From NCBI GenBank assembly GCA_002786855.1, contig PCUU01000041.1:1-64000 (forward strand): 64,000 nucleotides of DNA, written 5' to 3'. Below, piece by piece: positions 35,681 through 47,720 of this stretch (within the stretch, counting starts at the first letter, position 1; each line of letters begins with the position of its first letter). The position numbers and the translations under genes are program-made. This DNA is from Cytophagales bacterium CG12_big_fil_rev_8_21_14_0_65_40_12. GTDB lineage: Bacteria > Bacteroidota > Bacteroidia > Cytophagales > Cyclobacteriaceae. A model generated the notes under the pieces. The model saw only the letters and a list, made by a program, of their open reading frames with translations, was not told the origin of the DNA and did no database searches.

Positions 35681-36562
35681 CTACTCCAACTCCGATTTAA
35701 CTGCATTTCCAAAAGCCCAGTCTAAAAAATCAGGAAAAACAGCCGACCAAGTCTCAAAATTGTGCTCACCGTCCTTCACTTCGACATAAGTAATACATTG
35801 TTCGGTATAGCCTTTTACTTGAAGTGTTTTAATGAGATCGAGCGTATCGTCAATCGCATCGATTACGCCATTATGATTTCGGTCTGAAGTCTCATCTTTC
35901 GTTCCAGCTTGAAGCCAAAACTTCATCCCCGCATTGTACTTCCCTTGATTTACTACTTGGTGAATAATGCGATCTGCATCTGGGTATTGTTCATTTACAG
36001 GTGTACTCCTCCACCAAAACGAACCTGAAAAAACGCCCACTTTTAGAAAGGCCTGAGGGTTTCTCCATGTGATATCAATAGCACTCAATCCTCCCAACGA
36101 GAAACCTGCATATACTGAAAGTTCTGGTTCAATAAAGCAATTGTAATGCTCTCTTAAATAAGGCAATAACTTATAAATAATAAAGTCAGAATAGGTCTTG
36201 GCCTTCCATCCCCGATTTTTATAATCCGAAAAGCCAGCCGTACCGTATTCGTTCATCCGATCGCCTGCGTAAACACCCACAACGATTGGTAAAGTCTTTT
36301 TCTCCAAAATTCGTGCAGTAAGAATATCTACCAACTTCAATTGTTCCCAGTCTTGCCCATCATTGAGCAATAAGCTTGGCGTATTGGATTTTTCAGAAGG
36401 GTTGTAGTGCAGTGGCAAAAAAACGTCCACCCTCACCTTATGCTTTAGTCGCTTGGAGCGTACCAGCAGCTGATGCACCTGCAAATACTCATTGAGCACC
36501 AGCACCTTTTTCTTCTTTACAAAAGGCTTAATGATTATATCCGAAAACTCGCGAAACGACAT
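35681..36562 (-). CDS. Putative esterase of the esterase-D/enterochelin-esterase fold
   Basis: A 293-residue alpha/beta-hydrolase of the putative-esterase family. The nucleophile elbow is GFSLGG (Ser155), the acid lies in the GTKDETSDRNHNGVID region and the His in DGEHNFETW. It lacks a signal peptide and starts with a Lys-rich patch (KKKKV). The family includes S-formylglutathione, siderophore and peptide-ester hydrolases. It is one of three related esterases between 35.6 and 47.7 kb; the other two lead the ligase operons, so a shared pathway is possible. A -7 promoter box ends only five bases before its ATG. Confidence 0.82.
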   Translation of the reverse strand: MSFREFSDIIIKPFVKKKKVLVLNEYLQVHQLLVRSKRLKHKVRVDVFLPLHYNPSEKSNTPSLLLNDGQDWEQLKLVDILTARILEKKTLPIVVGVYAGDRMNEYGTAGFSDYKNRGWKAKTYSDFIIYKLLPYLREHYNCFIEPELSVYAGFSLGGLSAIDITWRNPQAFLKVGVFSGSFWWRSTPVNEQYPDADRIIHQVVNQGKYNAGMKFWLQAGTKDETSDRNHNGVIDAIDDTLDLIKTLQVKGYTEQCITYVEVKDGEHNFETWSAVFPDFLDWAFGNAVKSELE

Positions 36563-36835: not shown

Positions 36836-37507
36836 ATGAAATACTCACTTACCATCATTGCCCTTCTCCTCATCATCGCTTCTGCTTACGCCCAAAAAGA
36901 AATCAAATTTTTTACGAATGAGCAGCCTATTGATGTCAATAGGTACAAGGACATAGAAGGCAGTCCATTCCTCTTCAAAACATGGAAGAAGGCCACTTTG
37001 TATGATGTTTATGGGGCAACTTATAATGACGTGTTCTTTAACTACAACGGACTGACCCAAGATATCGAGCTTTTCAAAAACGATAAAGAGTTTATAATAC
37101 TTAACTCTTTGTTCTACGAGCGAATAGTGGCTGAGGACGAAGACGCCCCCAATGGTCAATTGGTAATGAAAAAAGGCCTTGATCCGGAATTGGGTGAAAG
37201 CTTTGTTCAAGTAATTCATGAAGGAGAAAAACTTACTGTGATTAAGCAGTTCAATGTGCGCAAAAGCAAAGTAACCATTAACGATGTGGGCAAAATTCGG
37301 AACTTCGAGAACTTCACGAGATCTACTAATTATAACGTAATCAGTAAGCTGGCTATGGTTGATATGAGCACAAAGAAGAAGCAATTGTTGAGACTCTTAG
37401 GAAGCGAAAATGAACTTGACCAATACATTAAAACTGAGAGACTAGACTTAGATAAGGATATTGACTTGGGCAAGCTCTTCGCTTTTTACGAAACCCTCGA
37501 AAACTAA
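36836..37507 (+). CDS. Exported protein of unknown function
   Basis: A 223-residue protein with a clear signal peptide (1-19, ASAYAQ). The mature part is mixed alpha/beta with FFTNEQPIDVNRYKDIEGSPFLF near the front and a charged C-terminal helical end (ENELDQYIKTERLDLDKDI). It has no Cys and no recognised motif. Bacteroidetes often encode such proteins, but I cannot name the family. It precedes the ligase operon by 224 bp, so it is probably a separate unit. Confidence 0.6.
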   Translation: MKYSLTIIALLLIIASAYAQKEIKFFTNEQPIDVNRYKDIEGSPFLFKTWKKATLYDVYGATYNDVFFNYNGLTQDIELFKNDKEFIILNSLFYERIVAEDEDAPNGQLVMKKGLDPELGESFVQVIHEGEKLTVIKQFNVRKSKVTINDVGKIRNFENFTRSTNYNVISKLAMVDMSTKKKQLLRLLGSENELDQYIKTERLDLDKDIDLGKLFAFYETLEN

Positions 37508-37731: not shown

Positions 37732-38436
37732 ATGAAAGAAGAATATTTCAAGTGGTACTCTCCTACTTTGAGCAAGGACATCGAGATGCTGGTATATGGC
37801 CATGCTGGGTATCCTGTAATTATTTTTCCTACTACAATGGGAAGATACTATGAAAGCAAGGACTTCAAACTTATAGATTCTGCTGCTTGGTTCCTTGATC
37901 AAGGCTTAATTCAATTGTATTGCGTTGACAGTATCGATTCGCTGAGCTGGTACAATAAAGGAATTCATCCAGCCGACCGTGTTAAAAATCATATCTGGTT
38001 TGATCAGTTCATTATGAACGAAATCGTTGACCCGATCAGAAGACAAAAAAGCATTCCTAAAGTGGCTGTAGCTGGTGCAAGCTTCGGAGGCTTCCATGCC
38101 GCTAACTTTGCTTTTAGGCATCCAGAAAGCGTGAGTCATTTATTCAGTATGAGCGGGGCCTTCAGCACAAAATCCTTCTTGGAAGGATATTATGATGATA
38201 ATGTCTACTTCACCAACCCAATGGACTATTTACCAGGGAACAACCATCCTGATTTATGGCAAATGAAAATCGTTTTAGGCGTTGGAGAATGGGACATTTG
38301 TTTGGATGCTAACCATCAATTATCTAATATTCTAAAGAGTAAAAACATTGATCATTGGTTCGACCTTAGAAAATGGGCTGAGCATGATTGGCCACTTTGG
38401 AGAGATATGTTTCCTCACTATTTATCATTGATTTAA
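37732..38436 (+). CDS. Esterase, first gene of the + strand ligase operon
   Basis: A 234-residue alpha/beta-hydrolase. I start at the ATG at 37732; a TTG 27 bp upstream is unlikely. The likely triad is Ser117 in GASFGG, Asp188 in GVGEWDIC and His218 in WAEHDWPLW. It is short and lacks an export signal, so it should act in the cytoplasm. It is followed by an ATP-grasp ligase (58-bp gap), a GCS2 ligase, a glutaminase-like protein and a second ATP-grasp-like protein. This context suggests it splits or transfers an ester, thioester or peptide bond in the compound the ligases make. Confidence 0.8.
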   Translation: MKEEYFKWYSPTLSKDIEMLVYGHAGYPVIIFPTTMGRYYESKDFKLIDSAAWFLDQGLIQLYCVDSIDSLSWYNKGIHPADRVKNHIWFDQFIMNEIVDPIRRQKSIPKVAVAGASFGGFHAANFAFRHPESVSHLFSMSGAFSTKSFLEGYYDDNVYFTNPMDYLPGNNHPDLWQMKIVLGVGEWDICLDANHQLSNILKSKNIDHWFDLRKWAEHDWPLWRDMFPHYLSLI

Positions 38437-38494
38437 ATCAAGTAACATAATCACATGGATGTCAATCACATGTGAAAAAACCAACAACCTACAC

Positions 38495-39508
38495 ATGAAA
38501 AAAATCGGCATTCTTTTCGGACAAGAAAACACCTTCCCTCATGCATTCATTGAGCGAATCAACGAGAAAAAAATCAAAGGCATCGAAGCCGAGATCGTAA
38601 CAGTCGATATGGTGCAGCAGGCTGCCCCTACTGACTATGCGGTGATTATCGATCGTATTTCACAAGATGTTCCTTTCTACAGAGCTTACTTAAAAAATGC
38701 GGCTATTGGCGGTACTGCTGTAATCAACAACCCATTTTGGTGGAGTGCCGATGAAAAATTCTTCAACAACGCTTTGGCAGAACAAATTGGTGTTCCCGTT
38801 CCGAAAACGGTGATCCTTCCTTCACACAAAAGACCTGATGATACTTCAGAAACTTCTTTCAGAAATATGGCTTATCCATTAAGCTGGGGTAAAATTTTCG
38901 ATTATATCGGTTTTCCTGCTTATATGAAACCACACGCTGGTGGTGGCTGGAAAAGCGTTTACCAAGTCTCTGATGCCAATGACCTTTTCGCAAAACATGC
39001 TGAAACTGATCAATTGGTGATGATGCTTCAAGAAGAAATCAAATTCACTGAGTATTTCAGATGTTATGCGCTTGGCGGTACGAACATACACATCATGCAA
39101 TACGAACCAAGAAATCCTCATCATTTAAGGTATGTAAGAGATGCCGCACCTGTGGCTGCAAGCCTTTTGAAAACGATCAAGGACTATTGCATTAAACTAA
39201 ATCAAGCTTTAGGTTACGACTTTAACACAGTTGAATTTGCGGTGAGAGATGGTATTCCTTACGCCATTGATTTCTGTAACCCAGCACCAGATGCTGATAT
39301 CAATTCAGTGGGTCAAGATAACTTTGATTGGATCGTTGAAAATGCAGCTAATTTGGCGATTAGCAGAGCTAAAGCTCAAAAACCTGGACAAATGAACCTG
39401 ACTTGGGGAACCTTCATCAGCAACCAGTTTGCGGCAAAAGCTCCAGTGGCCAAAGCTGCGACAACCACAAAAACCGCAGCTGCGAAAAAAGCCCCAAAAA
39501 AGGCTTAA
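38495..39508 (+). CDS. ATP-grasp ligase with a Lys/Ala-rich C-terminal tail
   Basis: A 337-residue ATP-grasp amidoligase of the RimK-like type, expected to activate a carboxylate as acyl phosphate and join it to an amine. The ATP-binding Lys145 lies in FPAYMKPHAGGGW, the hinge in MMLQEEIKF, and the metal ligands in NTVEFAV (Glu247) and IDFCNPAPD (Asp259, Asn262). The start is the ATG at 38495, which gives MKKIGILFGQ. The last 26 residues (312-337) are a low-complexity Ala/Lys/Thr/Pro tail like a histone-H1 end, odd for an enzyme; it may bind nucleic acid or an acidic partner. It lies in a five-gene operon with other ligases. Confidence 0.85.
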   Translation: MKKIGILFGQENTFPHAFIERINEKKIKGIEAEIVTVDMVQQAAPTDYAVIIDRISQDVPFYRAYLKNAAIGGTAVINNPFWWSADEKFFNNALAEQIGVPVPKTVILPSHKRPDDTSETSFRNMAYPLSWGKIFDYIGFPAYMKPHAGGGWKSVYQVSDANDLFAKHAETDQLVMMLQEEIKFTEYFRCYALGGTNIHIMQYEPRNPHHLRYVRDAAPVAASLLKTIKDYCIKLNQALGYDFNTVEFAVRDGIPYAIDFCNPAPDADINSVGQDNFDWIVENAANLAISRAKAQKPGQMNLTWGTFISNQFAAKAPVAKAATTTKTAAAKKAPKKA

Positions 39509-39534
39509 TTATCTCGCAAAAGTAATTGTAAGCC

Positions 39535-39561
39535 GAAGAACCTATTTATATTAGGTTCTTC
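39535..39561 (+). other. Perfect 10-bp hairpin between two operon genes
   Basis: GAAGAACCTA and TAGGTTCTTC pair around a 7-base loop, between the ATP-grasp and GCS2 genes. There is no T run, so it could lower downstream expression, protect the upstream mRNA or mark a processing site. Confidence 0.6.
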
Positions 39562-39588
39562 TAACATCACAAATCAACCTAACCATTT

Positions 39589-40683
39589 ATGCAATTTACT
39601 TTAGGCATTGAAGAGGAATACCAAGTCATCGACCCAACCAGTCGAGGATTGATTTCACATGACCAAAAAATCATTCGCGAGGCTGAAAAAGTGATGGCCA
39701 ACCAAGCCACACCAGAAATGCATGAAGCAATGGTGGAAGTGGGTACTAAAATCTGCCGTGATATCAATGATGCGCGTGAACAGGTTACCTATTTGCGAAA
39801 AAGCATTTCTGACATTTCAACAAGTTTAGGTTATCGCATTGGCGCAGCAGGTTGTCATCCTTTTTCTCATTGGGCAGATCAACCCATCACTCCTAAAGAG
39901 CGATATCGTATTCTAATTGATGAATTACAGGATATAGCCAGATCAAACCTGATTTTTGGCTTGCACGTGCATGTAGGCATTGAAGATAAGTCTATGGCTC
40001 TGCACATTGCAAACTCCATTCGCTACTTCTTGCCTCACGTTTATGCTCTTTCCACCAACTCCCCTTTTTGGGAAGGAAGGAATACTGGCTTTAAATCTTT
40101 CAGACCCAAAGTATTCGATAAATTCCCTCGGACTGGCATTCCGGATTACTTCGAAAGCATTTCAGAATACAACGACTATATCAATCTATTGATCAAAACA
40201 GGTTGTATTGACGAGGCCACAAAAATCTGGTGGGACGTTCGTTTGCATCCTGTCTATTCCACAATTGAGGTTCGGATTTGTGATATTCCGTTGACAGTTG
40301 ATGAAACTATCGCTATAGCTGCATTGATTCAAGCCATTGTTGCTAAGTTAGTTAAGCTAAGACAAAGCAACATGAACTTCATCAGCTATAAGCGATCGCT
40401 CATTGCCGAAAACAAATGGAGAGCAGGTCGTCATGGCATTGATGGGAAGCTGATTGATTTTGGTCAAGAAAAGCAAGTACCGGTGAAGGAACTCATTCCT
40501 GAATTGATTGATTTCGTTGATGATGTTTTAGACGAATTAGGATCAAGACATGAGATGGAAGGCATTTTCAAAATTCTTGAGAATGGTACAGGAGCGGATC
40601 GTCAGTTGAAAGTTTTTAAAGATACGGGCAGTATTACTGACGTTGTAGATTTTATAATTAAAGAAACAGTACACGGCTTATAG
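39589..40683 (+). CDS. GCS2-family carboxylate-amine ligase (YbdK-like)
   Basis: A 364-residue member of the glutamate-cysteine-ligase 2 family. It has the opening motif FTLGIEEEYQVID with metal-binding Glu residues, the central HVHVGI block, and a later EVRICDIP segment. YbdK-type enzymes make a gamma-glutamyl amide, classically with cysteine, at low efficiency; the partner amine here is unknown. It is the third gene of the + strand operon, with two ATP-grasp proteins and a glutaminase-like protein. The combination suggests stepwise assembly of a gamma-glutamyl peptide. Confidence 0.92.
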   Translation: MQFTLGIEEEYQVIDPTSRGLISHDQKIIREAEKVMANQATPEMHEAMVEVGTKICRDINDAREQVTYLRKSISDISTSLGYRIGAAGCHPFSHWADQPITPKERYRILIDELQDIARSNLIFGLHVHVGIEDKSMALHIANSIRYFLPHVYALSTNSPFWEGRNTGFKSFRPKVFDKFPRTGIPDYFESISEYNDYINLLIKTGCIDEATKIWWDVRLHPVYSTIEVRICDIPLTVDETIAIAALIQAIVAKLVKLRQSNMNFISYKRSLIAENKWRAGRHGIDGKLIDFGQEKQVPVKELIPELIDFVDDVLDELGSRHEMEGIFKILENGTGADRQLKVFKDTGSITDVVDFIIKETVHGL

Positions 40684-40713
40684 TCGGTATTTTGGTTGGG
40701 AAGAGGGAAAGCG

Positions 40714-41538
40714 ATGAAGCAGAATAAACTAAGGTTAGCGATTCTAGACATGAACAATGGCACTCCAAATCAGGGGATGCGCTGTTTAAGAGAAATTGCT
40801 GATAGATATAAAGATCAATTAGATTGGGACGAATTTGACGTAAGGCAAAAAAATGAATTGCCTGACTTGAGTTACGACCTCTATATTTCGAGCGGTGGCC
40901 CTGGAAGTCCACTTGATGGCGATACATGGAAAAAGAATTTTTTTAATCTTATTGATGCTGCTTGGATCCACAATCAGCAAGAAGACAGCTCAAAAAAGCA
41001 CTTTTTCTTCATTTGCCATTCCTTTCAGTTGGCATGCGAACACTTCAATTTAGGTACGATTACCAAGCGTAAAAGCACTTCATTCGGAGTCTATCCTATT
41101 CATAAAAATAAAGCAGGTAGAAAAGAGCCTTTGTTTGATGGCTTGAGTGACCCCTACTATGCAGTTGACTCTAGAGATTGGCAATTAATTCAGCCTAAGC
41201 TCAAGGTTTTTGCAGAACACGGTGCCAAGGTATTGAGCTTAGAAAAGATCAGAACGCATGTGGAGTATGAACGCGCAATTATGGCTGTACGCTTTTCACC
41301 TGAATTTATTGGCACTCAATTTCATCCAGAAGCTGATGCACAAGGCATGAAAACGCATTTCGAAAAAACCGAGAACAGAGAAAAGGTAATCAAGAACTTC
41401 GGAATTGAACGCTATGATGACATGATGTTGATGCTTGAAGATCCCAATAAAATTGAATTGACCCATAGCATTATCTTACCAAACTTCATAGAGTCTTCGA
41501 TCCAAAAGCTTCAAGAACAAGAATTAGCCGTTTTGTAA
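40714..41538 (+). CDS. Class I glutamine-amidotransferase-like protein
   Basis: A 274-residue protein with the complete Cys/His/Glu glutaminase triad: Cys101 in FICHSFQ, and His204/Glu206 in TQFHPE. SGGPGSP near residue 60 is the oxyanion-side loop. The elbow has Cys-His-Ser where most members have Cys-x-Gly, so it is atypical. A synthetase domain is missing, so it either passes ammonia to a partner or acts as a gamma-glutamyl hydrolase like PuuD. I chose the Met at 40714. The next gene begins two bases after its stop codon, so the two are tightly coupled. Confidence 0.82.
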   Translation: MKQNKLRLAILDMNNGTPNQGMRCLREIADRYKDQLDWDEFDVRQKNELPDLSYDLYISSGGPGSPLDGDTWKKNFFNLIDAAWIHNQQEDSSKKHFFFICHSFQLACEHFNLGTITKRKSTSFGVYPIHKNKAGRKEPLFDGLSDPYYAVDSRDWQLIQPKLKVFAEHGAKVLSLEKIRTHVEYERAIMAVRFSPEFIGTQFHPEADAQGMKTHFEKTENREKVIKNFGIERYDDMMLMLEDPNKIELTHSIILPNFIESSIQKLQEQELAVL

Positions 41539-41539
41539 T

Positions 41540-42736
41540 ATGATCAAGTCTTACCGCTCCATTTTCAATCAAGAATTTACGCCAGCAAAGTATCAGGCTT
41601 TTTTAAATGGTGTTGGAGCGGAATACGACCATATGCCGAAGTTCAGGGTTGCTGAAACGCCTGTTTTTATTCCAAAGCTGCTTCAAGAAAGGTTATTAGA
41701 AGCCTGTGAAGAAATCAATCAGGTGCTTATGCTGCCTGAATTTAAGGAAATGACTAAGGATGCCATTAAAGCGCCAATGGTCAATGTGCCAAATGAAGAT
41801 GAGCATTCTAAATTCATTCAGCTCGACTTTGGGGTTTGCTTAGATGAACATGGCGACCCAATCCCAATGTTGATTGAGCTGCAAGGATTTCCTTCGCTCT
41901 ACTTTTTTCAAGACTTACTTTCCAGAAAATACAAAGAACACTTCAACATCCCTGAAGGCTTTAGCAGCCATGTGAGTGGAGTCAGCCGAGAGCAATACTT
42001 GGCCATGCTCAAAAAAGAGATTGTTGGTGATGCTGATCCAAAAAATGTGGTACTTCTCGAAGTTGAGCCTGAAAAACAGACGACTTATATTGACTTGTTA
42101 GCTACTTCAAGAGTTCTTGGTATCAAAACCTTGTGCATTTCTGCACTAAAGAAGGAAGGAAAGTCCCTTTATTACATTGACGAAGCTGGCGTGAAAGTCA
42201 AAGTAGAACGCATCTATAATCGAATCATCTTTGATGAATTAGACCAAAGAACCGACCTGAAAAGAGAATTCTATTTTGAAGATGAAGTGGATGTACATTG
42301 GGTGGGACATCCCAATTGGTTCTTTAGAATCAGTAAGTACACCATGCCATTTTTAAAGAGCAAATACGTTCCTGAAACTCGTTTCTTGAGTGATGTTAGT
42401 GAATATCCTACCGATTTAGAGAATTACGTTTTGAAGCCGCTTTATTCATTTGCAGGCAGTGGCGTTAAAATCAATATCACTAAAGCCGACTTGGATGAAA
42501 TTAGCGACAAAGAGAATTTCATCCTTCAAAAAAAGGTCGCTTATGCCCCTATTGTTGAAACCATGGACGTTCCCGCGAAATGCGAAATCCGCATGATGAC
42601 CGTTTGGAATGACCAGGAGCAAAAAGCACAGGTAGTCAATAACCTGGTGCGCTTAAGCAAGGGCGAAATGATTGGCGTCCGCTATAACAAAGACAAAGAA
42701 TGGGTCGGTGGTAGCGTAGGCTTTTTTGAACCTTAA
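41540..42736 (+). CDS. Probable circularly permuted ATP-grasp ligase (GspS-like)
   Basis: A 398-residue protein without a signal peptide. The C-terminal half carries an ATP-grasp Lys (299, YVLKPL), a Gly-rich loop (304-309) and the hinge ENFILQKK; EIRMM (349-353) follows. The N-terminal half has QLDFGVCLDEHGDPIPMLIE with Asp96 and Glu113, the order seen in glutathionylspermidine-synthase-like, circularly permuted ATP-grasp enzymes, where a D..E-x-N motif binds metal before the Lys. Here the usual Asn is Gln115. KVERIYNRII (about 221-230) resembles another GspS segment. It would add an amine to a carboxylate, possibly on the product of the upstream GCS2 ligase. I infer this from motif order; it has not been shown. 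Confidence 0.72.
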   Translation: MIKSYRSIFNQEFTPAKYQAFLNGVGAEYDHMPKFRVAETPVFIPKLLQERLLEACEEINQVLMLPEFKEMTKDAIKAPMVNVPNEDEHSKFIQLDFGVCLDEHGDPIPMLIELQGFPSLYFFQDLLSRKYKEHFNIPEGFSSHVSGVSREQYLAMLKKEIVGDADPKNVVLLEVEPEKQTTYIDLLATSRVLGIKTLCISALKKEGKSLYYIDEAGVKVKVERIYNRIIFDELDQRTDLKREFYFEDEVDVHWVGHPNWFFRISKYTMPFLKSKYVPETRFLSDVSEYPTDLENYVLKPLYSFAGSGVKINITKADLDEISDKENFILQKKVAYAPIVETMDVPAKCEIRMMTVWNDQEQKAQVVNNLVRLSKGEMIGVRYNKDKEWVGGSVGFFEP

Positions 42737-42771
42737 TTGGTTTCAGCCGAATCTTTCAATAAACCGCATGG

Positions 42772-43307
42772 ACAGTTCGCCCCGATGGGGCATTTGATTT
42801 TCAGATTCTCTTTTTTCTATTAACAGGTCACTCCTACGGAGTTCTCTTTAATCCTATTTCAATACTACTATTAAAAGGCCGTCCCGAATGGGACTAATGT
42901 ATCATAAATAGAGCTGCACCAATCTTGATCATTCACTTAGTCATTCTAACAGTTCGCCCTGCTGGGGCTTATTTGTGAATCTTTTATCCTTTCTATTAAA
43001 AGGCCCTTCCTATGGTACTGAAATGTCCTATAGTTCAGGCATCCTAATCTGACATTTAGTTTTTACTTTAGCCCCAAGGGGTGTTCTGTTAATAGCAAAA
43101 TTCATAATCTAAATTCAATTCACTAGCCCCAGAGGGGCGTACTATTAATAGCACAATTCAAGATTAAGTTAATGAGCCCCAGAGGGGCAATCTGTTAATA
43201 GAGAATATTCTCGATTTAGGGAAAAGGAAAGAGCCCCAGAGGGGCGATCCTATTAATAGAATGGTCATCATATATATCGTTGAGCCCCATCGGGGCGGCC
43301 TGTCAAT
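42772..43307. repeat. REP palindrome array, left of the transposase
   Basis: About ten units of a GC-rich palindrome (GCCCCAGAGGGGC and variants) with a conserved tail CTGTTAATAG or its complement. Units near 42772, 42816, 42868, 42947 and 42991 carry the tail before the palindrome; units near 43071, 43126, 43176, 43233 and 43283 carry it after. The change of orientation makes BIME-like pairs. The last tail overlaps the transposase stop codon. The array fills the gene-free stretch 42737-43306. Confidence 0.85.
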
Positions 43308-43765
43308 CAAAGCCAATCAAACAGATATTTCTCTTCATATTCCACATTGAACCGGTTTAAAAATTCAATGTATTCATCTTTGAAGCTTGTCTTTAAATGG
43401 TGTTGCTCTTGGTTGTTGATGTATTTCACAACCACATCAATTTGCGATTGGGCATAAGAGAAGGCACCATAACCTGATTGCCATTCAAACTTGCCCCTAA
43501 CCCATTTTTTATCATTGATGAATTTTGAAGCACCCGCCTTAATATCACGAATGAAATCAGAAATCATGACATCAGGTTTGAAACTGACCAACATATGGGT
43601 ATGGTCTGGCATGCAATAAATGGCAAACAGTTTTTGATTTCGTTGAGCAACAATTCCTGAAATATATTTCTGAAGCTCTTCTCTATTTTCTTTCGTAACA
43701 AGGCTTTGCCTGCCTTTTACAGCAAAGACAAATTGAATGTAGATTTGGGTATAGGTATTAGCCAT
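43307..43765 (-). CDS. REP-associated tyrosine transposase (IS200-like, RAYT)
   Basis: A 152-residue HUH nuclease of the Y1 transposase group. The metal-binding HTH pair lies in MPDHTHMLVSF, and the active Tyr lies in VVKYINNQEQHH; FEWQSGYGAFSYAQSQ is typical of the Bacteroidetes branch. There are no IS ends or second orf; instead REP palindromes with a shared tail lie on both sides. This fits a domesticated RAYT, which can cut and mobilise REP sequences in trans. The gene is intact and may still be active. Confidence 0.9.
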   Translation of the reverse strand: MANTYTQIYIQFVFAVKGRQSLVTKENREELQKYISGIVAQRNQKLFAIYCMPDHTHMLVSFKPDVMISDFIRDIKAGASKFINDKKWVRGKFEWQSGYGAFSYAQSQIDVVVKYINNQEQHHLKTSFKDEYIEFLNRFNVEYEEKYLFDWL

Positions 43766-44072
43766 ATTACAGGTCGCCCCGATGGGGCTTTTTTGTTAAA
43801 TTTCTTTCTCCTATTAACAGGCCGTCCCGGTGGGACTATTCAATTCTATCTAAATAAAACTGTAATCTTAATCATTCATGCAGGTGCAAAACAGATCACT
43901 CGGCTTTGGCTTTTATGTGCTAAATTTATCTCTTCTTATTAGAAGATAACTCCTAAAGAGTTTTTGCCCGTTATTTTGCAATATATTACCAAACAAAATA
44001 GCAACAATATTCAAATCATACAACATGAAGACTGTCGCTTGACCTAGCTCCAGCGAGGCAATTCTGTTAATT
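43766..44072. repeat. REP palindromes, right of the transposase
   Basis: Further units of the same family: a good one at about 43766-43789 (ACAGGTCGCCCCGATGGGGC) directly before the transposase start, another near 43811-43837, a decayed one near 43932-43960, and one in opposite orientation near 44044-44072 that runs into the MITE-like element. The rest of the gene-free stretch 43766-44276 holds only that element and AT-rich sequence. Confidence 0.75.
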
Positions 44073-44243
44073 AAACCCGATTTATGCAATAGAAATCGTG
44101 ATGATGGCGTAAATCACAAAGAATCAGGAAGTTTGGCTTAAATAGCATAGCAGCGCTATGGTGAGAAGACAAACGAAGCAGAGCGACTGATTCAAAGTGA
44201 GTTGCGTCAGTAATAGAAAGTCTATTACATAATTCGGGTTAAA
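44071..44243. mobile_element. 173-bp MITE-like element with terminal inverted repeats
   Basis: The left end TTAAACCCGATTTATGCAAT continues to AGA, and the right end is its imperfect inverse (reverse complement TTTAACCCGAATTATGTAAT, also followed by AGA); 19 of 23 end bases agree. The interior is non-coding and has a CATAGC/GCTATG dyad. No transposase gene of this type is in the window, and no clear target-site duplication is seen. The short length and the paired ends suggest a non-autonomous element mobilised in trans. Confidence 0.65.
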
Positions 44244-44276
44244 GACAAACTAGTGCTACTTACCTTGTTGGCCTTC

Positions 44277-45479
44277 CTAATTCACCGATTTATTGGGGGC
44301 TGGGGCGCTAGCGTGAAATTCATTGGCAATTCGCTGCGTGTATTTATCCAGCAAATCTAAAATCGTCAGCTGCGAATCGGAGCTTACAATCACTCCAACA
44401 TGCCAAGCCTTGTTCATCTTCCAAACAATCTCCGTATCATTAAAACTGGACATATCTGGGTGTTCAAAACGGCTTAATGATACCACAATTCCTGCGTATT
44501 TCTTCTTGACTTCGGGCAATTGATATTCGTAGCCTTTCAAAACGGCATCCTCAATTTTAGCCCATTCCGCCCACAAATTAATACCTGAGGCTGCCTCTAC
44601 CATTTCGGCAAGGTTGGCTCCTCCTACCCTTGAAGAAGTCTCTAAAAAGAAGTATTCTCCTGTGGCGTGAGATTTTATAAACTCAGAATGTGAAGCACTA
44701 TGCTTCAGGCCAAAAGCCTTCATCACCTGCTTATTCAGTTTTGTGAGCCCTTTGTCATCAGCAGAATTCAATTCCATGGTCACTGATCTGAAAATCCCAC
44801 CGCCATGCGCCACTTCGAAAGGCGTATCAAGGTATTTACTCACTCTGGTGAAAATCACCTTATCATTGTAATTCAATGAATCTACATGATAAACATCGCC
44901 AGGGGCGAATTTCTCAACGAGGTAATTATGGCGATTATCTCCTAAATCATGGGCCACTTGCCAAAGCTCATCTTTAGAATGAATCTTTTTAATCCCAGTT
45001 GCTGAAGCTTCAGACCTTGGTTTGATCAGCCATGGCGCAGGAACCGTATCCGCAAACAGATTGATGGCATCATCATTGAAAAGGGCCGTGAACTCAGGAA
45101 TAGGAATCCCCGCATCTTTAGACTTGATGCGCATCGCAAGTTTATCCCTAAAATAGCGGGAAGTAGTCTCTCCCATGCCGGGCATACGGAAATGCTCTCT
45201 GAGCGTAGCTACTTTTTCAACATCAAAATCATCAAGGGCTACAAATCGATCAAAATGAATTGACCTGAATTTGAAAGCTAAACCAGCAAGCACTTGCTTA
45301 TCGTCCCATTCATCGATATAGAAAACTTCATCGATAGACTCAAAAGGCCAAGCTTCATGTTCTAACTTCTTTCTGGTTAGAAGGAAAACCCTATTTCCTT
45401 GGGCTTTGCATGATTTCAGAAAATCTTGCCCTTTAAAATAGGTTGAAACACAAAGGAAGTTTAAAGCTTGGTTTGACAT
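44277..45479 (-). CDS. ATP-grasp ligase, third member of the cluster
   Basis: A 400-residue canonical ATP-grasp ligase with carbamoyl-phosphate-synthetase/PurK-like order: a Rossmann-like N-terminus, ATP Lys153 in WLIKPRSEASATGI, the hinge LVEKFAPGD, and metal ligands Glu266 (SEF) and Glu280 in FLETSSRVGGAN. The start at 45479 (MSNQALNFL) fits the family. It is the last gene of an esterase/M17-peptidase/ligase operon that converges on the + strand ligase operon. It probably forms an amide or peptide bond on a small molecule. Confidence 0.88.
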   Translation of the reverse strand: MSNQALNFLCVSTYFKGQDFLKSCKAQGNRVFLLTRKKLEHEAWPFESIDEVFYIDEWDDKQVLAGLAFKFRSIHFDRFVALDDFDVEKVATLREHFRMPGMGETTSRYFRDKLAMRIKSKDAGIPIPEFTALFNDDAINLFADTVPAPWLIKPRSEASATGIKKIHSKDELWQVAHDLGDNRHNYLVEKFAPGDVYHVDSLNYNDKVIFTRVSKYLDTPFEVAHGGGIFRSVTMELNSADDKGLTKLNKQVMKAFGLKHSASHSEFIKSHATGEYFFLETSSRVGGANLAEMVEAASGINLWAEWAKIEDAVLKGYEYQLPEVKKKYAGIVVSLSRFEHPDMSSFNDTEIVWKMNKAWHVGVIVSSDSQLTILDLLDKYTQRIANEFHASAPAPNKSVN

Positions 45480-45500
45480 AATTTGGTCTTTTAGGTTGAC

Positions 45501-46946
45501 TTATTTTTCTATTAAGGTCATCATTACTTGATGAAGCAATCTCACGCCATACCCTGACGCACTTTTCATTTTTGAATAGGCACTATCTCCAAAAGCAACA
45601 CCAGCGATATCCAAATGCATCCAATGCTCATGGTCTTCGATGAAAGCTTCTAGGAATTTAGCTGCGGTGATGGCACCTGCCAATGGTTTCCCACTGTAAT
45701 TTCTTAAATCGGCTACATCAGAATGCAGATCGTCTTTGAATTCATCATAAAGCGGAAGTCTCCAAACGCGTTCTAAGGTGTCTTCACCTACTCTAGAGAC
45801 TGCCGCACTCATTGTGTCATCATGCGTGAACATCGCGCCTGCCGAATAACCTAAAGTCATCACGCTGCTACCAGTCAGTGTGGCCAAGTCGATCATGTAC
45901 TCAGGTTTGTAATTGCGCACCATATAGCTCAGCGCATCGGCCAAAACCAATCTACCTTCGGCATCAGTGTCAATTACTTCGATGCTTTTGCCTGAATAAG
46001 AACCAATGACATCACCCGGTTTCACGCTGTTGGCGTCTACGGCATTTTCTGCGGAGGCCACTATGCCTACCAAATGAATTGGCAATTGAAGTCGCGCGGC
46101 TAATTCAATGGCTCCGAAAACAGCTGCGGCTCCCCCCATATCACTTTTCATGTAATGCATGTTCTGTGAAGGTTTTATAGAAAGCCCGCCTGTATCGAAG
46201 GTTATGCCCTTACCTACCAAACCCAATTTCGGGGTTTTACTATTCTGGCCTTCTGGCTTATATTCAAGCTTAATGAGCACAGGAGGATGTGTACTTCCTT
46301 GACCAACAGCCATTAAAGCCTCAAGTCCTTCTTCCACTAATTCCTCGTATTCTAAGACATCACAAGAATAACCATGGATTTCCGCAGAACTTTGAGCCCA
46401 TTCTGCCAAAAAAGTCGGGGTTTTAATATTTCCCGGGGCATCGACCAAGGCCATAATACCCATCATCGCTTGAGCTGTTTCAAAGCCTAGATTAATGAGT
46501 TCACTTTGATCCGTTTTGGTCAGAATACTCACTTCAAAAGCTTCGGTATGAAGTAAATCCAGTTCCTTATCATCGGTTTTATAAACGCCAATCCTGTAAT
46601 CAGCTAAGGCAATGCCCAAGGCTGCTGCTGTGATATAATTATTGTCAAGGTGTCGGCAATCGATTTGAATATTGGTTTTCCAAGCACTTTTCCTTTTGAA
46701 GGCCAACCATCTGAATGCATCATGTGCTTTTCCTTGGTCTTTATCTTCTCCAAGGCCCACTAAATAGACTTTTCTATCACTTGAAACGTGATACAATGAC
46801 ATGATTTGCTTGAAACTTCCTTCAAAATCAGGTTTGCCTTTAACGCCTGTATTCTCGCTTATCAATTCGAAATTGACTTGATTTTTGAGAAATGGAAGGA
46901 TGACAATTTCAGATTCTTGTGTACTTGTGATTGATTTGAATATCAT
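45501..46946 (-). CDS. M17 leucyl aminopeptidase
   Basis: A 481-residue cytosolic aminopeptidase with a complete two-metal site. Lys246 and Asp251 lie in GKGITFDTGG, Asp269 in MKSDMGG, and Asp328, Glu330 and Arg332 in DTDAEGRL. These residues align with bovine LAP with a constant offset of four. M17 enzymes split N-terminal residues from small peptides, and some cleave cysteinyl-glycine. Its place between an esterase and an ATP-grasp ligase (gaps of 6 and 21 bp) suggests it degrades or trims the product of the ligase operons. General peptide recycling is the alternative. Confidence 0.95.
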   Translation of the reverse strand: MIFKSITSTQESEIVILPFLKNQVNFELISENTGVKGKPDFEGSFKQIMSLYHVSSDRKVYLVGLGEDKDQGKAHDAFRWLAFKRKSAWKTNIQIDCRHLDNNYITAAALGIALADYRIGVYKTDDKELDLLHTEAFEVSILTKTDQSELINLGFETAQAMMGIMALVDAPGNIKTPTFLAEWAQSSAEIHGYSCDVLEYEELVEEGLEALMAVGQGSTHPPVLIKLEYKPEGQNSKTPKLGLVGKGITFDTGGLSIKPSQNMHYMKSDMGGAAAVFGAIELAARLQLPIHLVGIVASAENAVDANSVKPGDVIGSYSGKSIEVIDTDAEGRLVLADALSYMVRNYKPEYMIDLATLTGSSVMTLGYSAGAMFTHDDTMSAAVSRVGEDTLERVWRLPLYDEFKDDLHSDVADLRNYSGKPLAGAITAAKFLEAFIEDHEHWMHLDIAGVAFGDSAYSKMKSASGYGVRLLHQVMMTLIEK

Positions 46947-46952
46947 AATTTT

Positions 46953-47720
46953 TCAATTGTTAAAATATAGCCATTTTATGGCCTTCGGAAACTCAATTCC
47001 CCAATAAAATTCTCCGTGATTTCCTTCTTCATTGATAGATGAGATAAATCGACCGTTTTCTGAACTCTGAAATATTGGCTCAATTATTTTAGAAAGCCTG
47101 TGAATGTTGGGCAAATGGAACCTACTCTCTTTAGCACCGGCATAAAGGTAAAGTGCGTTTTCGTGCTCAACTTGATACTTTGCGGCATCATGATAAATCA
47201 TCGGTGACACCCATAAACTAGGCGAAAAGATCATCATTTTAGCAAACACATCTGGTCTAGTTACTCCAGCATATAAACTGATCAAACCTCCCATTGAACT
47301 GCCTCCAATGCCCCTATTTTTCGGGTCAGGGCTTACACGAAGCTTGCCTTCTACATAAGGAATCAATGAATCGACCAAAAAGTCAACATAAGCCTTCCCT
47401 TTTCCAGTGCCTAATCTAGGGTTGTAATACGGTGAGTACTCAACAATCCGCTCATCATCTCCATGATCAATAGCGATGATGATTATTTCGTGAAAACCGT
47501 CATTTGCCAGTTGTGCTAAACTCTGATCAATCGCCCAATTGCCATAGGGTGCATCTGGGTTAAAAAGGTTCTGTCCATCTTGAAGATAGAGTACAGGATA
47601 TAGTTTCTCTGACCGGTGATAGTCGTATGGAAGCAAGGCAGAAACTCTTCGTTTCACCTGTAAATGAGGGATTTCAAAGGCCTCCTCAAGTATTTCAATA
47701 ATCGGTTTGAATGTCTCCAC
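46953..47720 (-). CDS. Esterase, first gene of the minus-strand ligase operon
   Basis: A 255-residue alpha/beta-hydrolase of the putative-esterase (enterochelin esterase/IroE) group. The nucleophile is Ser142 in GGSSMGG; LYLQDGQNLFNP is the typical front motif, and the His is probably in EEGNHGEFYW. There is no export signal. It heads the operon esterase/M17 peptidase/ATP-grasp, mirroring the esterase at the head of the + strand operon. A -7 promoter box lies 13 bases upstream of its ATG. Confidence 0.85.
   Translation of the reverse strand: METFKPIIEILEEAFEIPHLQVKRRVSALLPYDYHRSEKLYPVLYLQDGQNLFNPDAPYGNWAIDQSLAQLANDGFHEIIIIAIDHGDDERIVEYSPYYNPRLGTGKGKAYVDFLVDSLIPYVEGKLRVSPDPKNRGIGGSSMGGLISLYAGVTRPDVFAKMMIFSPSLWVSPMIYHDAAKYQVEHENALYLYAGAKESRFHLPNIHRLSKIIEPIFQSSENGRFISSINEEGNHGEFYWGIEFPKAIKWLYFNN

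Follow-up and report, generated by a model that had tools for sequence, protein, structure and literature searches.

Gene organization of the locus

The 64,000-nucleotide stretch of contig PCUU01000041.1 of Cytophagales bacterium CG12_big_fil_rev_8_21_14_0_65_40_12 (hereafter, the window) carries at positions 37732-47720 two convergent operons of ligase and hydrolase genes, estA-agrA-gcs2-gat-agrB on the plus strand and estB-m17-agrC on the minus strand, which are the subject of this contribution. The names agrA, agrB, agrC, estA, estB and estU were coined for this analysis. All nine genes listed in the initial annotation of the window (the eight genes of the two operons and the upstream esterase gene estU) are present at their reported places, and both operons indeed open with an esterase or hydrolase gene, an alpha/beta hydrolase (estA) in one case and a PF00756 protein (estB) in the other. 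The features of the locus, with the basis of each assignment in brackets, are:

35681-36562, minus strand: estU, PF00756 esterase, divergent upstream of estA (Pfam)
37732-38436, plus strand: estA, alpha/beta hydrolase, opens operon 1 (Pfam)
38495-39508 (open reading frame from 38459), plus strand: agrA, RimK/LysX-like ATP-grasp ligase (weak NCBIfam match, fold)
39589-40683, plus strand: gcs2, YbdK-type carboxylate-amine ligase, PF04107 (Pfam, NCBIfam)
40714-41538 (open reading frame from 40696), plus strand: gat, class I glutamine-amidotransferase-like hydrolase, PF00117 (Pfam)
41540-42736, plus strand: agrB, GSS/GspS/YgiC-type ATP-grasp ligase (fold only)
42768-43914, no strand: REP-like palindrome array around a Y1 transposase, a mobile element outside the pathway (repeats)
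43307-43765, minus strand: IS200-like Y1 transposase, PF01797, between the operons (Pfam)
44277-45479, minus strand: agrC, L-amino-acid-ligase-like ATP-grasp protein, closes operon 2 (profile match)
45501-46946, minus strand: m17, leucyl-aminopeptidase-family (M17) peptidase, PF00883 (Pfam, residues)
46953-47720, minus strand: estB, PF00756 esterase, opens operon 2 (Pfam)

The gat gene ends and agrB starts one base apart; gat itself perhaps starts at 40714 instead of the open reading frame start at 40696. The start of agrA is more likely at 38495, because 14 of 16 aligned orthologues begin at residue 13 of the window reading frame. The presence of three ATP-grasp proteins, proposed initially, is borne out by fold for agrB, by profile for agrC and by RimK likeness for agrA, although none of the three is over a Pfam or NCBIfam cut-off. 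No signal peptide is evident by eye in any member of the cluster. A small protein predicted by eye to be secreted is encoded between estU and estA (36836-37507); it has no Pfam match and is not among the genes found in the 89 agrB loci described below.

Co-occurrence of the genes in Bacteroidota

Conservation of the gene set was followed in 296 Bacteroidota genomes, each of which was searched with agrB, agrA, agrC, gat and gcs2 (gat was counted at E 1e-20; gcs2 was counted at E < 1e-100, leaving out 10 of 103 weaker matches; second agrC copies in G030, G219 and G290 were left out of the counts). The agrA gene was found in 106 genomes, gcs2 in 93, agrB in 92, gat in 70 and agrC in 66. Presence of agrA was observed in 89 of the 92 agrB genomes (32.9 expected), in 69 of the 70 gat genomes (25.1 expected) and in all 66 agrC genomes (23.6 expected); agrA and gcs2 are found together in 90 genomes (33.3 expected) and agrB and gcs2 in 87, i.e., in 87 of the 92 agrB genomes (28.9 expected). 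For each of the ten gene pairs the hypergeometric p-value, uncorrected for relatedness, is below 1e-20. Relatedness alone does not explain the co-occurrence, because the pattern is nearly all-or-none even inside single genera: 14 of the 17 genomes of genus g13 are without all five genes, two are complete and one has gcs2-gat-agrB only; of the two genomes of genus g6, one is devoid of the genes and the other carries agrA, gcs2, gat and agrB. In the g13 genome G154 (locus L101), where estA and agrA are absent, gcs2-gat-agrB adjoins the gene family that lies upstream in its relatives L104 and L110.

The genes are thus one genetically linked system in the sampled Bacteroidota, with agrA as its hub, and the co-occurrence together with the kept gene order led us to reject chance clustering. 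The concern raised at the outset, that the set might lack conservation in relatives or that its genes might each stand alone elsewhere, does not apply, since both conservation and linkage of the set are seen in the sampled genomes. At the same time, the set is not fixed. The gcs2 gene is missing from 16 of the 106 agrA genomes (from 15 at E 1e-60), among them all four genomes of family f8, which keep agrA, gat, agrB and agrC; a gamma-glutamyl product, suggested initially, is therefore not the common core of the system. Because agrC is present in just 66 of the 106 agrA genomes, the three-gene module estB-m17-agrC is optional. Finally, 37 of the 92 agrB genomes are without gat, and 15 of the 70 gat genomes are without agrB.

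Gene order and modules

Gene order was examined in 89 loci from the 92 agrB genomes (the source genome, G234 and G251 are not among them), in loci from 40 of the 58 genomes with agrA away from agrB, from 20 of the 55 genomes with agrC away from agrA (18 of these 20 were mapped), and from 11 of the 17 agrA genomes lacking agrB (G096, G104, G123, G160, G254 and G287 were left out); the gene-order mapping of 60 loci left out L142, L159, L163, L168 and L182. The gene maps drew open reading frames of about 90 amino acids or longer. To these were added named loci from a genome collection, the best 80 of at least 584 confirmed matches to agrA, all with Bacteroidota titles; these loci favour the full set because they were selected as closest to agrA.

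The run estA-agrA-gcs2-gat-agrB is complete in 24 of the 89 agrB loci and has the same order on one strand in all 24. Gene order is kept between distant relatives. Among the best 80 named loci, 59 have the full five plus-strand genes in order; taken singly, estA and gcs2 each occur in 72, gat in 68, agrB in 66 and estU in 48, in all 48 of which estU is opposite in strand to agrA. Among the named carriers of the gene set are strains of Pedobacter, Mucilaginibacter, Dyadobacter, Algoriphagus and Polaribacter. In the genome survey, estU is divergent upstream in 12 of the 89 agrB loci, and of the 89 genomes holding both agrA and agrB, 48 have the two genes no more than 12 kb apart.

The eight genes were initially taken as one set, which is not how they behave: they form separable five-gene and three-gene modules with replaceable members. 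The modules are convergent in the window and in four relatives (L093, L188, L190 and L201, where agrC, m17 and estB face agrB), make one collinear run in one genus, and are far apart elsewhere. The collinear run, estB-m17-agrC-estA-agrA-gcs2-gat-agrB on one strand, is seen in four f6/g11 loci (L058, L059, L061 and L063) and, cut at its start, in L062. The estB-m17-agrC module is intact away from agrA in 7 of the 20 examined agrC loci, and m17-agrC in one more. Within the five-gene module, the agrA-gcs2 pair beside a divergent estU is parted from gat-agrB in L126, L128-L131, L134 and L135, and the gat-agrB pair is kept without agrA and gcs2 nearby in L097, L111, L114 and L119. Where agrB stands without the set, no shared function of its neighbours was seen by eye.

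Several other genes were observed near the set. Genes for a cyanophycin synthetase, a cyanophycinase and an isoaspartyl-peptidase-like protein lie downstream of the eight-gene run in L058, L059, L061 and L063 (at about 10.2-16 kb), and isoaspartyl-peptidase-like genes are also near the set in L038, L148, L154 and L156; the cyanophycin link (cphA, cphB) is kept as a note only, because both genes come from one genus. A sodium:solute symporter gene directly precedes agrB in L049, and in L051 symporter and agrB read by eye as one open frame of 867 amino acids; L047 was grouped with these two, also by eye, for a symporter before agrB.

Fold of agrB

At E 0.001, neither Pfam nor NCBIfam yields a match for the agrB protein. 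Its AlphaFold2 model, built from 26 sequences, has a mean pLDDT of 92.6 and a pTM of 0.92. Foldseek gave 23 matches below 1e-3, which fall to glutathione synthetases together with their nematode relatives, to GspS and a putative GspS, to YgiC and YjfC, and to trypanothione synthetase and Cp1B. A structural aligner placed YgiC first, over nearly the whole chain (Z 26.3, root-mean-square deviation 3.4, 343 residues aligned), followed by YjfC (Z 26.0), human GSS (24.7), GspSA (24.6) and Cp1B (22.6). Altogether, 26 entries of the YgiC/YjfC/GspS/GSS group match the model at Z from 26.3 down to 19.7, and the next below the group are a putative gamma-glutamylcysteine synthetase at Z 12.7 and RimK/LysX-type enzymes at 8.3 or less. 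As judged from the model, agrB shares the YgiC/YjfC/GspS/GSS ATP-grasp fold over its full length.

Residues Asp96, Glu113 and Gln115 of agrB are the same in all 26 sequences compared and, matched by motif spacing only, are placed like D141, E163 and N165 of Cp1B. In PMC12568646, R139, D141, E163 and N165 are stated to matter in Cp1B, and YgiC and YjfC are described as recently characterised bacterial peptidylpolyamine synthetases, with reference to Pederick et al. 2023. By analogy with these enzymes, agrB may be a peptide-amine ligase, and it looks like a candidate new family of GSS-fold ligases.

The other enzymes

The agrA protein has a weak RimK/LysX match in NCBIfam, below cut-offs. Its fold is RimK/LysX/ArgX-like, with Z from 22.0 (RimK, the best) to 20.8; other ATP-grasp enzymes reach Z 19.8, D-Ala ligases among them at 19.5, and in Foldseek D-Ala ligases rank first. 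Long C-terminal tails rich in Lys, Ala and Pro are present on agrA in the window and in L093, L094 and L124; their length varies and some orthologues are without them. The gcs2 protein scores above the thresholds of two NCBIfam models, NF010039 (carboxylate-amine ligase) and TIGR02050 (YbdK family), its nearest solved structure is YbdK (3.2e-50), and it passes none of the NCBIfam models named glutamate-cysteine ligase. The initially noted resemblance to the logic of glutathione or glutathionylspermidine synthesis is supported by the fold of agrB (Z 24-26); PF03738 (GSP_synth) matches nothing in the source genome.

The agrC protein has an ATP-grasp match below Pfam cut-offs; its profile matches are to the L-amino acid ligase structures 4wd3 (1.4e-23) and 3vot (3.2e-13) and to BacD (1.5e-7), as well as to BL00235; by sequence profile, agrC is thus related to characterised L-amino acid ligases. 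On the side of the hydrolases, Cys107, His210 and Glu212 of gat (numbered from 40696) are invariant in 19 of 19 sequences, and K246, D251, K258, D269, D328, E330 and R332 of m17, which we take to be the expected metal and catalytic residues of the family, in 6 of 6. In estA (numbered from 37735), Ser116 is kept in 11 of 12 aligned sequences, Asp187 in 12 of 12 and His217 in 11 of 12. An estA homologue at L048:12312-13028 is without the catalytic serine, having GYEFGA instead of GxSFGG.

Proposed exchange of ligase and hydrolase partners

Each of the 11 examined agrA loci whose genomes lack agrB has a gene for a circularly permuted ATP-grasp protein nearby, directly following agrA in 8 of 9 mapped loci. 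The one that was scanned is CP_ATPgrasp_2, and the others are 55-91% identical to it; at E 1e-15 the protein is absent from the remaining 218 of the 229 loci searched. The system is completed by agrB or, in the examined loci lacking agrB, by this permuted ATP-grasp protein.

The hydrolase partner varies as well. Of 36 loci from gat-less genomes, 15 encode an M29 peptidase or an amidohydrolase on the strand of agrB and no more than 2.5 kb from it, versus 1 of 53 loci from genomes with gat (Fisher p 1.7e-6, uncorrected). The M29 cases come from four families (f19, f30, f38 and f46) and the Amidohydro_3 cases are 11 genomes of f24 and f27. We read this as an exchange of the cognate amide hydrolase.

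A possible peptide-amide pathway

The reading that we favour, tentatively and with less than even confidence, is that the genes encode a conserved pathway in the cytosol whose product is a short peptide-amide, assembled without the ribosome. The enzyme gcs2, where present, would make the first amide, perhaps a gamma-glutamyl one, and agrA would add a further residue. The agrB enzyme, by analogy with YgiC and YjfC, would then activate the peptide carboxylate as an acyl phosphate and join it to an amine. The gat protein may be the cognate amide hydrolase, a role that would fall to the M29 peptidase or amidohydrolase beside agrB in some gat-less genomes; if so, the agrB/gat pair would work like the glutathionylspermidine synthetase/amidase pair. 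In an optional branch, agrC would add an amino acid that m17 would trim, while estA, estU and estB may remove ester or thioester adducts. The simplest reading is that a small cytosolic peptide-amide is made and unmade in the cell, because carboxylate-activating ligases, one with a fold whose known members couple peptides with an amino acid or a polyamine, sit together with amide hydrolases, peptidases and esterases, none of these proteins having an evident signal peptide.

A number of observations weigh against this proposal. All five genes are visible in only 24 of the 89 agrB loci, and in many distant genomes the neighbours of agrB are unrelated. The p-values for co-occurrence and exchange are uncorrected for relatedness. 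In 21 of the 36 loci from gat-less genomes, agrB has neither of the replacement hydrolases next to it, and two families account for all 11 amidohydrolase cases. A sequence profile ties agrB to YgiC only at E 0.034, PF03738 is without a match in the genome, as said above, and the equivalent of R139 of Cp1B is not kept, position 94 of agrB being Q, A, T, I or V. No carboxyspermidine decarboxylase is over the cut-off in the source genome (TIGR01047 is below it), and a polyamine as the amine is therefore a guess. In agreement with the initial annotation, no characterised product of the gene set, nor any account of the set itself, was found in the literature searched; term searches within PMC4431377, PMC2922099 and PMC8939145 likewise turned up nothing about it.

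It is also conceivable, although unlikely, that gat and agrB together form a glutamine-dependent amidotransferase that makes a primary peptide amide, a compatible-solute-like compound such as N-acetylglutaminylglutamine amide (NAGGN). The one-base spacing of the two genes, their pairing in the four loci without agrA and gcs2 nearby, and the Cys-His-Glu triad of gat, intact in 19 of 19 sequences, would all suit such an enzyme. However, the two genes do not depend on each other: gat is missing from 37 of the 92 agrB genomes and agrB from 15 of the 70 gat genomes, and the former count weakens gat as an obligatory ammonia donor of agrB. Moreover, in four gat-less families gcs2 and agrB are separated by an M29 peptidase gene, whose product could not supply ammonia from glutamine, and agrB has the fold of ligases for amines or amino acids. 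The NAGGN system has an asparagine-synthetase-like enzyme and an acetyltransferase-ATP-grasp fusion in its cluster; no such Pfam domain was detected at E 0.001 in the ten window proteins scanned.

We assign a low probability to a protein-modifying or peptide-tagging system in which the RimK-like agrA would attach amino acids to a protein, to be taken off again by the peptidases and hydrolases. The RimK/LysX/ArgX fold of agrA belongs to a family acting on ribosomal or carrier proteins, and the weak match of agrA to the R2K ATP-grasp clade (E 0.0078, below cut-off) points the same way. But the scores of D-Ala ligases and other enzymes come within 3 Z units of that of RimK, so that the fold does not single out a protein substrate, and a small carrier or tag gene does not recur in the gene maps, which a tag shorter than about 90 amino acids would escape.

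Equally improbable in our judgement, or slightly more so, is a second low-molecular-weight thiol pathway akin to that of glutathione, in which the PF00756 enzymes would be thioesterases and m17 a Cys-X peptidase. The combination of GCS2 and a GSS-like fold follows the logic of glutathione synthesis, and PF00756 includes S-formylglutathione hydrolases. Against this, gcs2 matches no glutamate-cysteine ligase model over its cut-off, and the gcs2-less genomes keep agrA and agrB. The bacillithiol synthesis gene bshC is over the cut-off in 285 of the 296 genomes, the source genome included, and this near-universality makes a replacement thiol unlikely; no exclusion between bshC and the agr genes is seen, since two (G109 and G237) of the five genomes without any bshC match hold agr genes. 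Salvage, in which the cell would take up peptide amides or conjugates and the set would break down and rebuild them, is very unlikely: the many hydrolases and the symporter genes next to agrB in L049 and L051 would fit it, but a transporter is absent from the Pfam matches of the ten window proteins, and three ATP-consuming ligases favour synthesis.

If the peptide-amide pathway is considered together with its distribution, a broader proposal can be made, which we regard as possible but doubtful: about a third of the sampled Bacteroidota would produce a peptide-amine conjugate that has so far gone unrecognised and is functionally akin to glutathionylspermidine; agrB would be a new GSS-fold family, its cognate amide hydrolase would come in three alternative kinds (GAT, M29 and amidohydrolase), and a permuted ATP-grasp protein would replace the ligase in some lineages. 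What is observed is a nearly all-or-none linked gene set in about a third of the sampled Bacteroidota (agrA in 106 of 296). It offers a small number of genes whose loss is predicted to abolish a single defined metabolite, and this makes the question of its product a testable one.

Relation to known systems

Multi-ligase peptide pathways are known as a kind; what seems novel is the present combination of genes, together with the agrB family and the partner exchange. Iyer et al. reportedly described, in 2009, predicted amidoligase neighbourhoods in which several peptide ligases are found with peptidases, and parts of the present cluster may be among them. The closest likeness to agrB is found in E. 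coli YgiC and YjfC, which share its fold over nearly the whole chain and the conserved Asp and Glu at the presumed metal site, and which, going by the title of the 2023 work of Pederick et al., are said to "possess peptide-spermidine ligase activity". Unlike them, agrB sits with agrA, gcs2 and gat; it is 13-14% identical to them, has no Pfam GSP_synth match and is without the Arg of the R-x-D motif.

Glutathionylspermidine synthetase/amidase and trypanothione synthetase have a synthetase half with a fold like that of agrB (Z 24.6 and 22.6), and the pairing of amide-forming and amide-breaking activities would be alike if gat, the M29 peptidase or the amidohydrolase is the cognate hydrolase. In our case, however, the genes are separate, the presumed amidase belongs to the class I GAT, M29 or amidohydrolase type, and glutathione as a substrate is unsupported. 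Glutathione synthesis by a GCS2-type GshA and a eukaryotic-type GSS likewise combines GCS2 and the GSS fold in one operon, but gcs2 is YbdK-like and not universal, and an extra RimK-like ligase is the hub here; for the prokaryotic GshB, the best TIGR01380 match in the source genome scores 83.6 bits against a cut-off of 299. The agrC protein, which resembles the L-amino acid ligases BL00235 and BacD, differs from them in being linked to m17 and estB and in occurring only in agrA genomes.

Transposase and palindromes between the operons

The gap between the two operons (42737-44276) holds the IS200-like Y1 transposase gene inside the REP-like palindrome array. A 13-base palindrome, with up to 2 mismatches, is present in 7 copies in the window versus 0.5 expected, all of them within 42779-43788, and its exact 13-base core has three copies in the genome assembly, all at this locus. 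In the convergent relatives L093, L188, L190 and L201, only 23-103 bases separate the matched parts of agrB and agrC, and the insertion of the transposase between the operons is therefore probably secondary. The palindrome arrays flank the transposase gene in opposite orientations, with a spacing of 50-57 bases in one array, and the region 42768-43914 as a whole looks like a REP/RAYT-type element.

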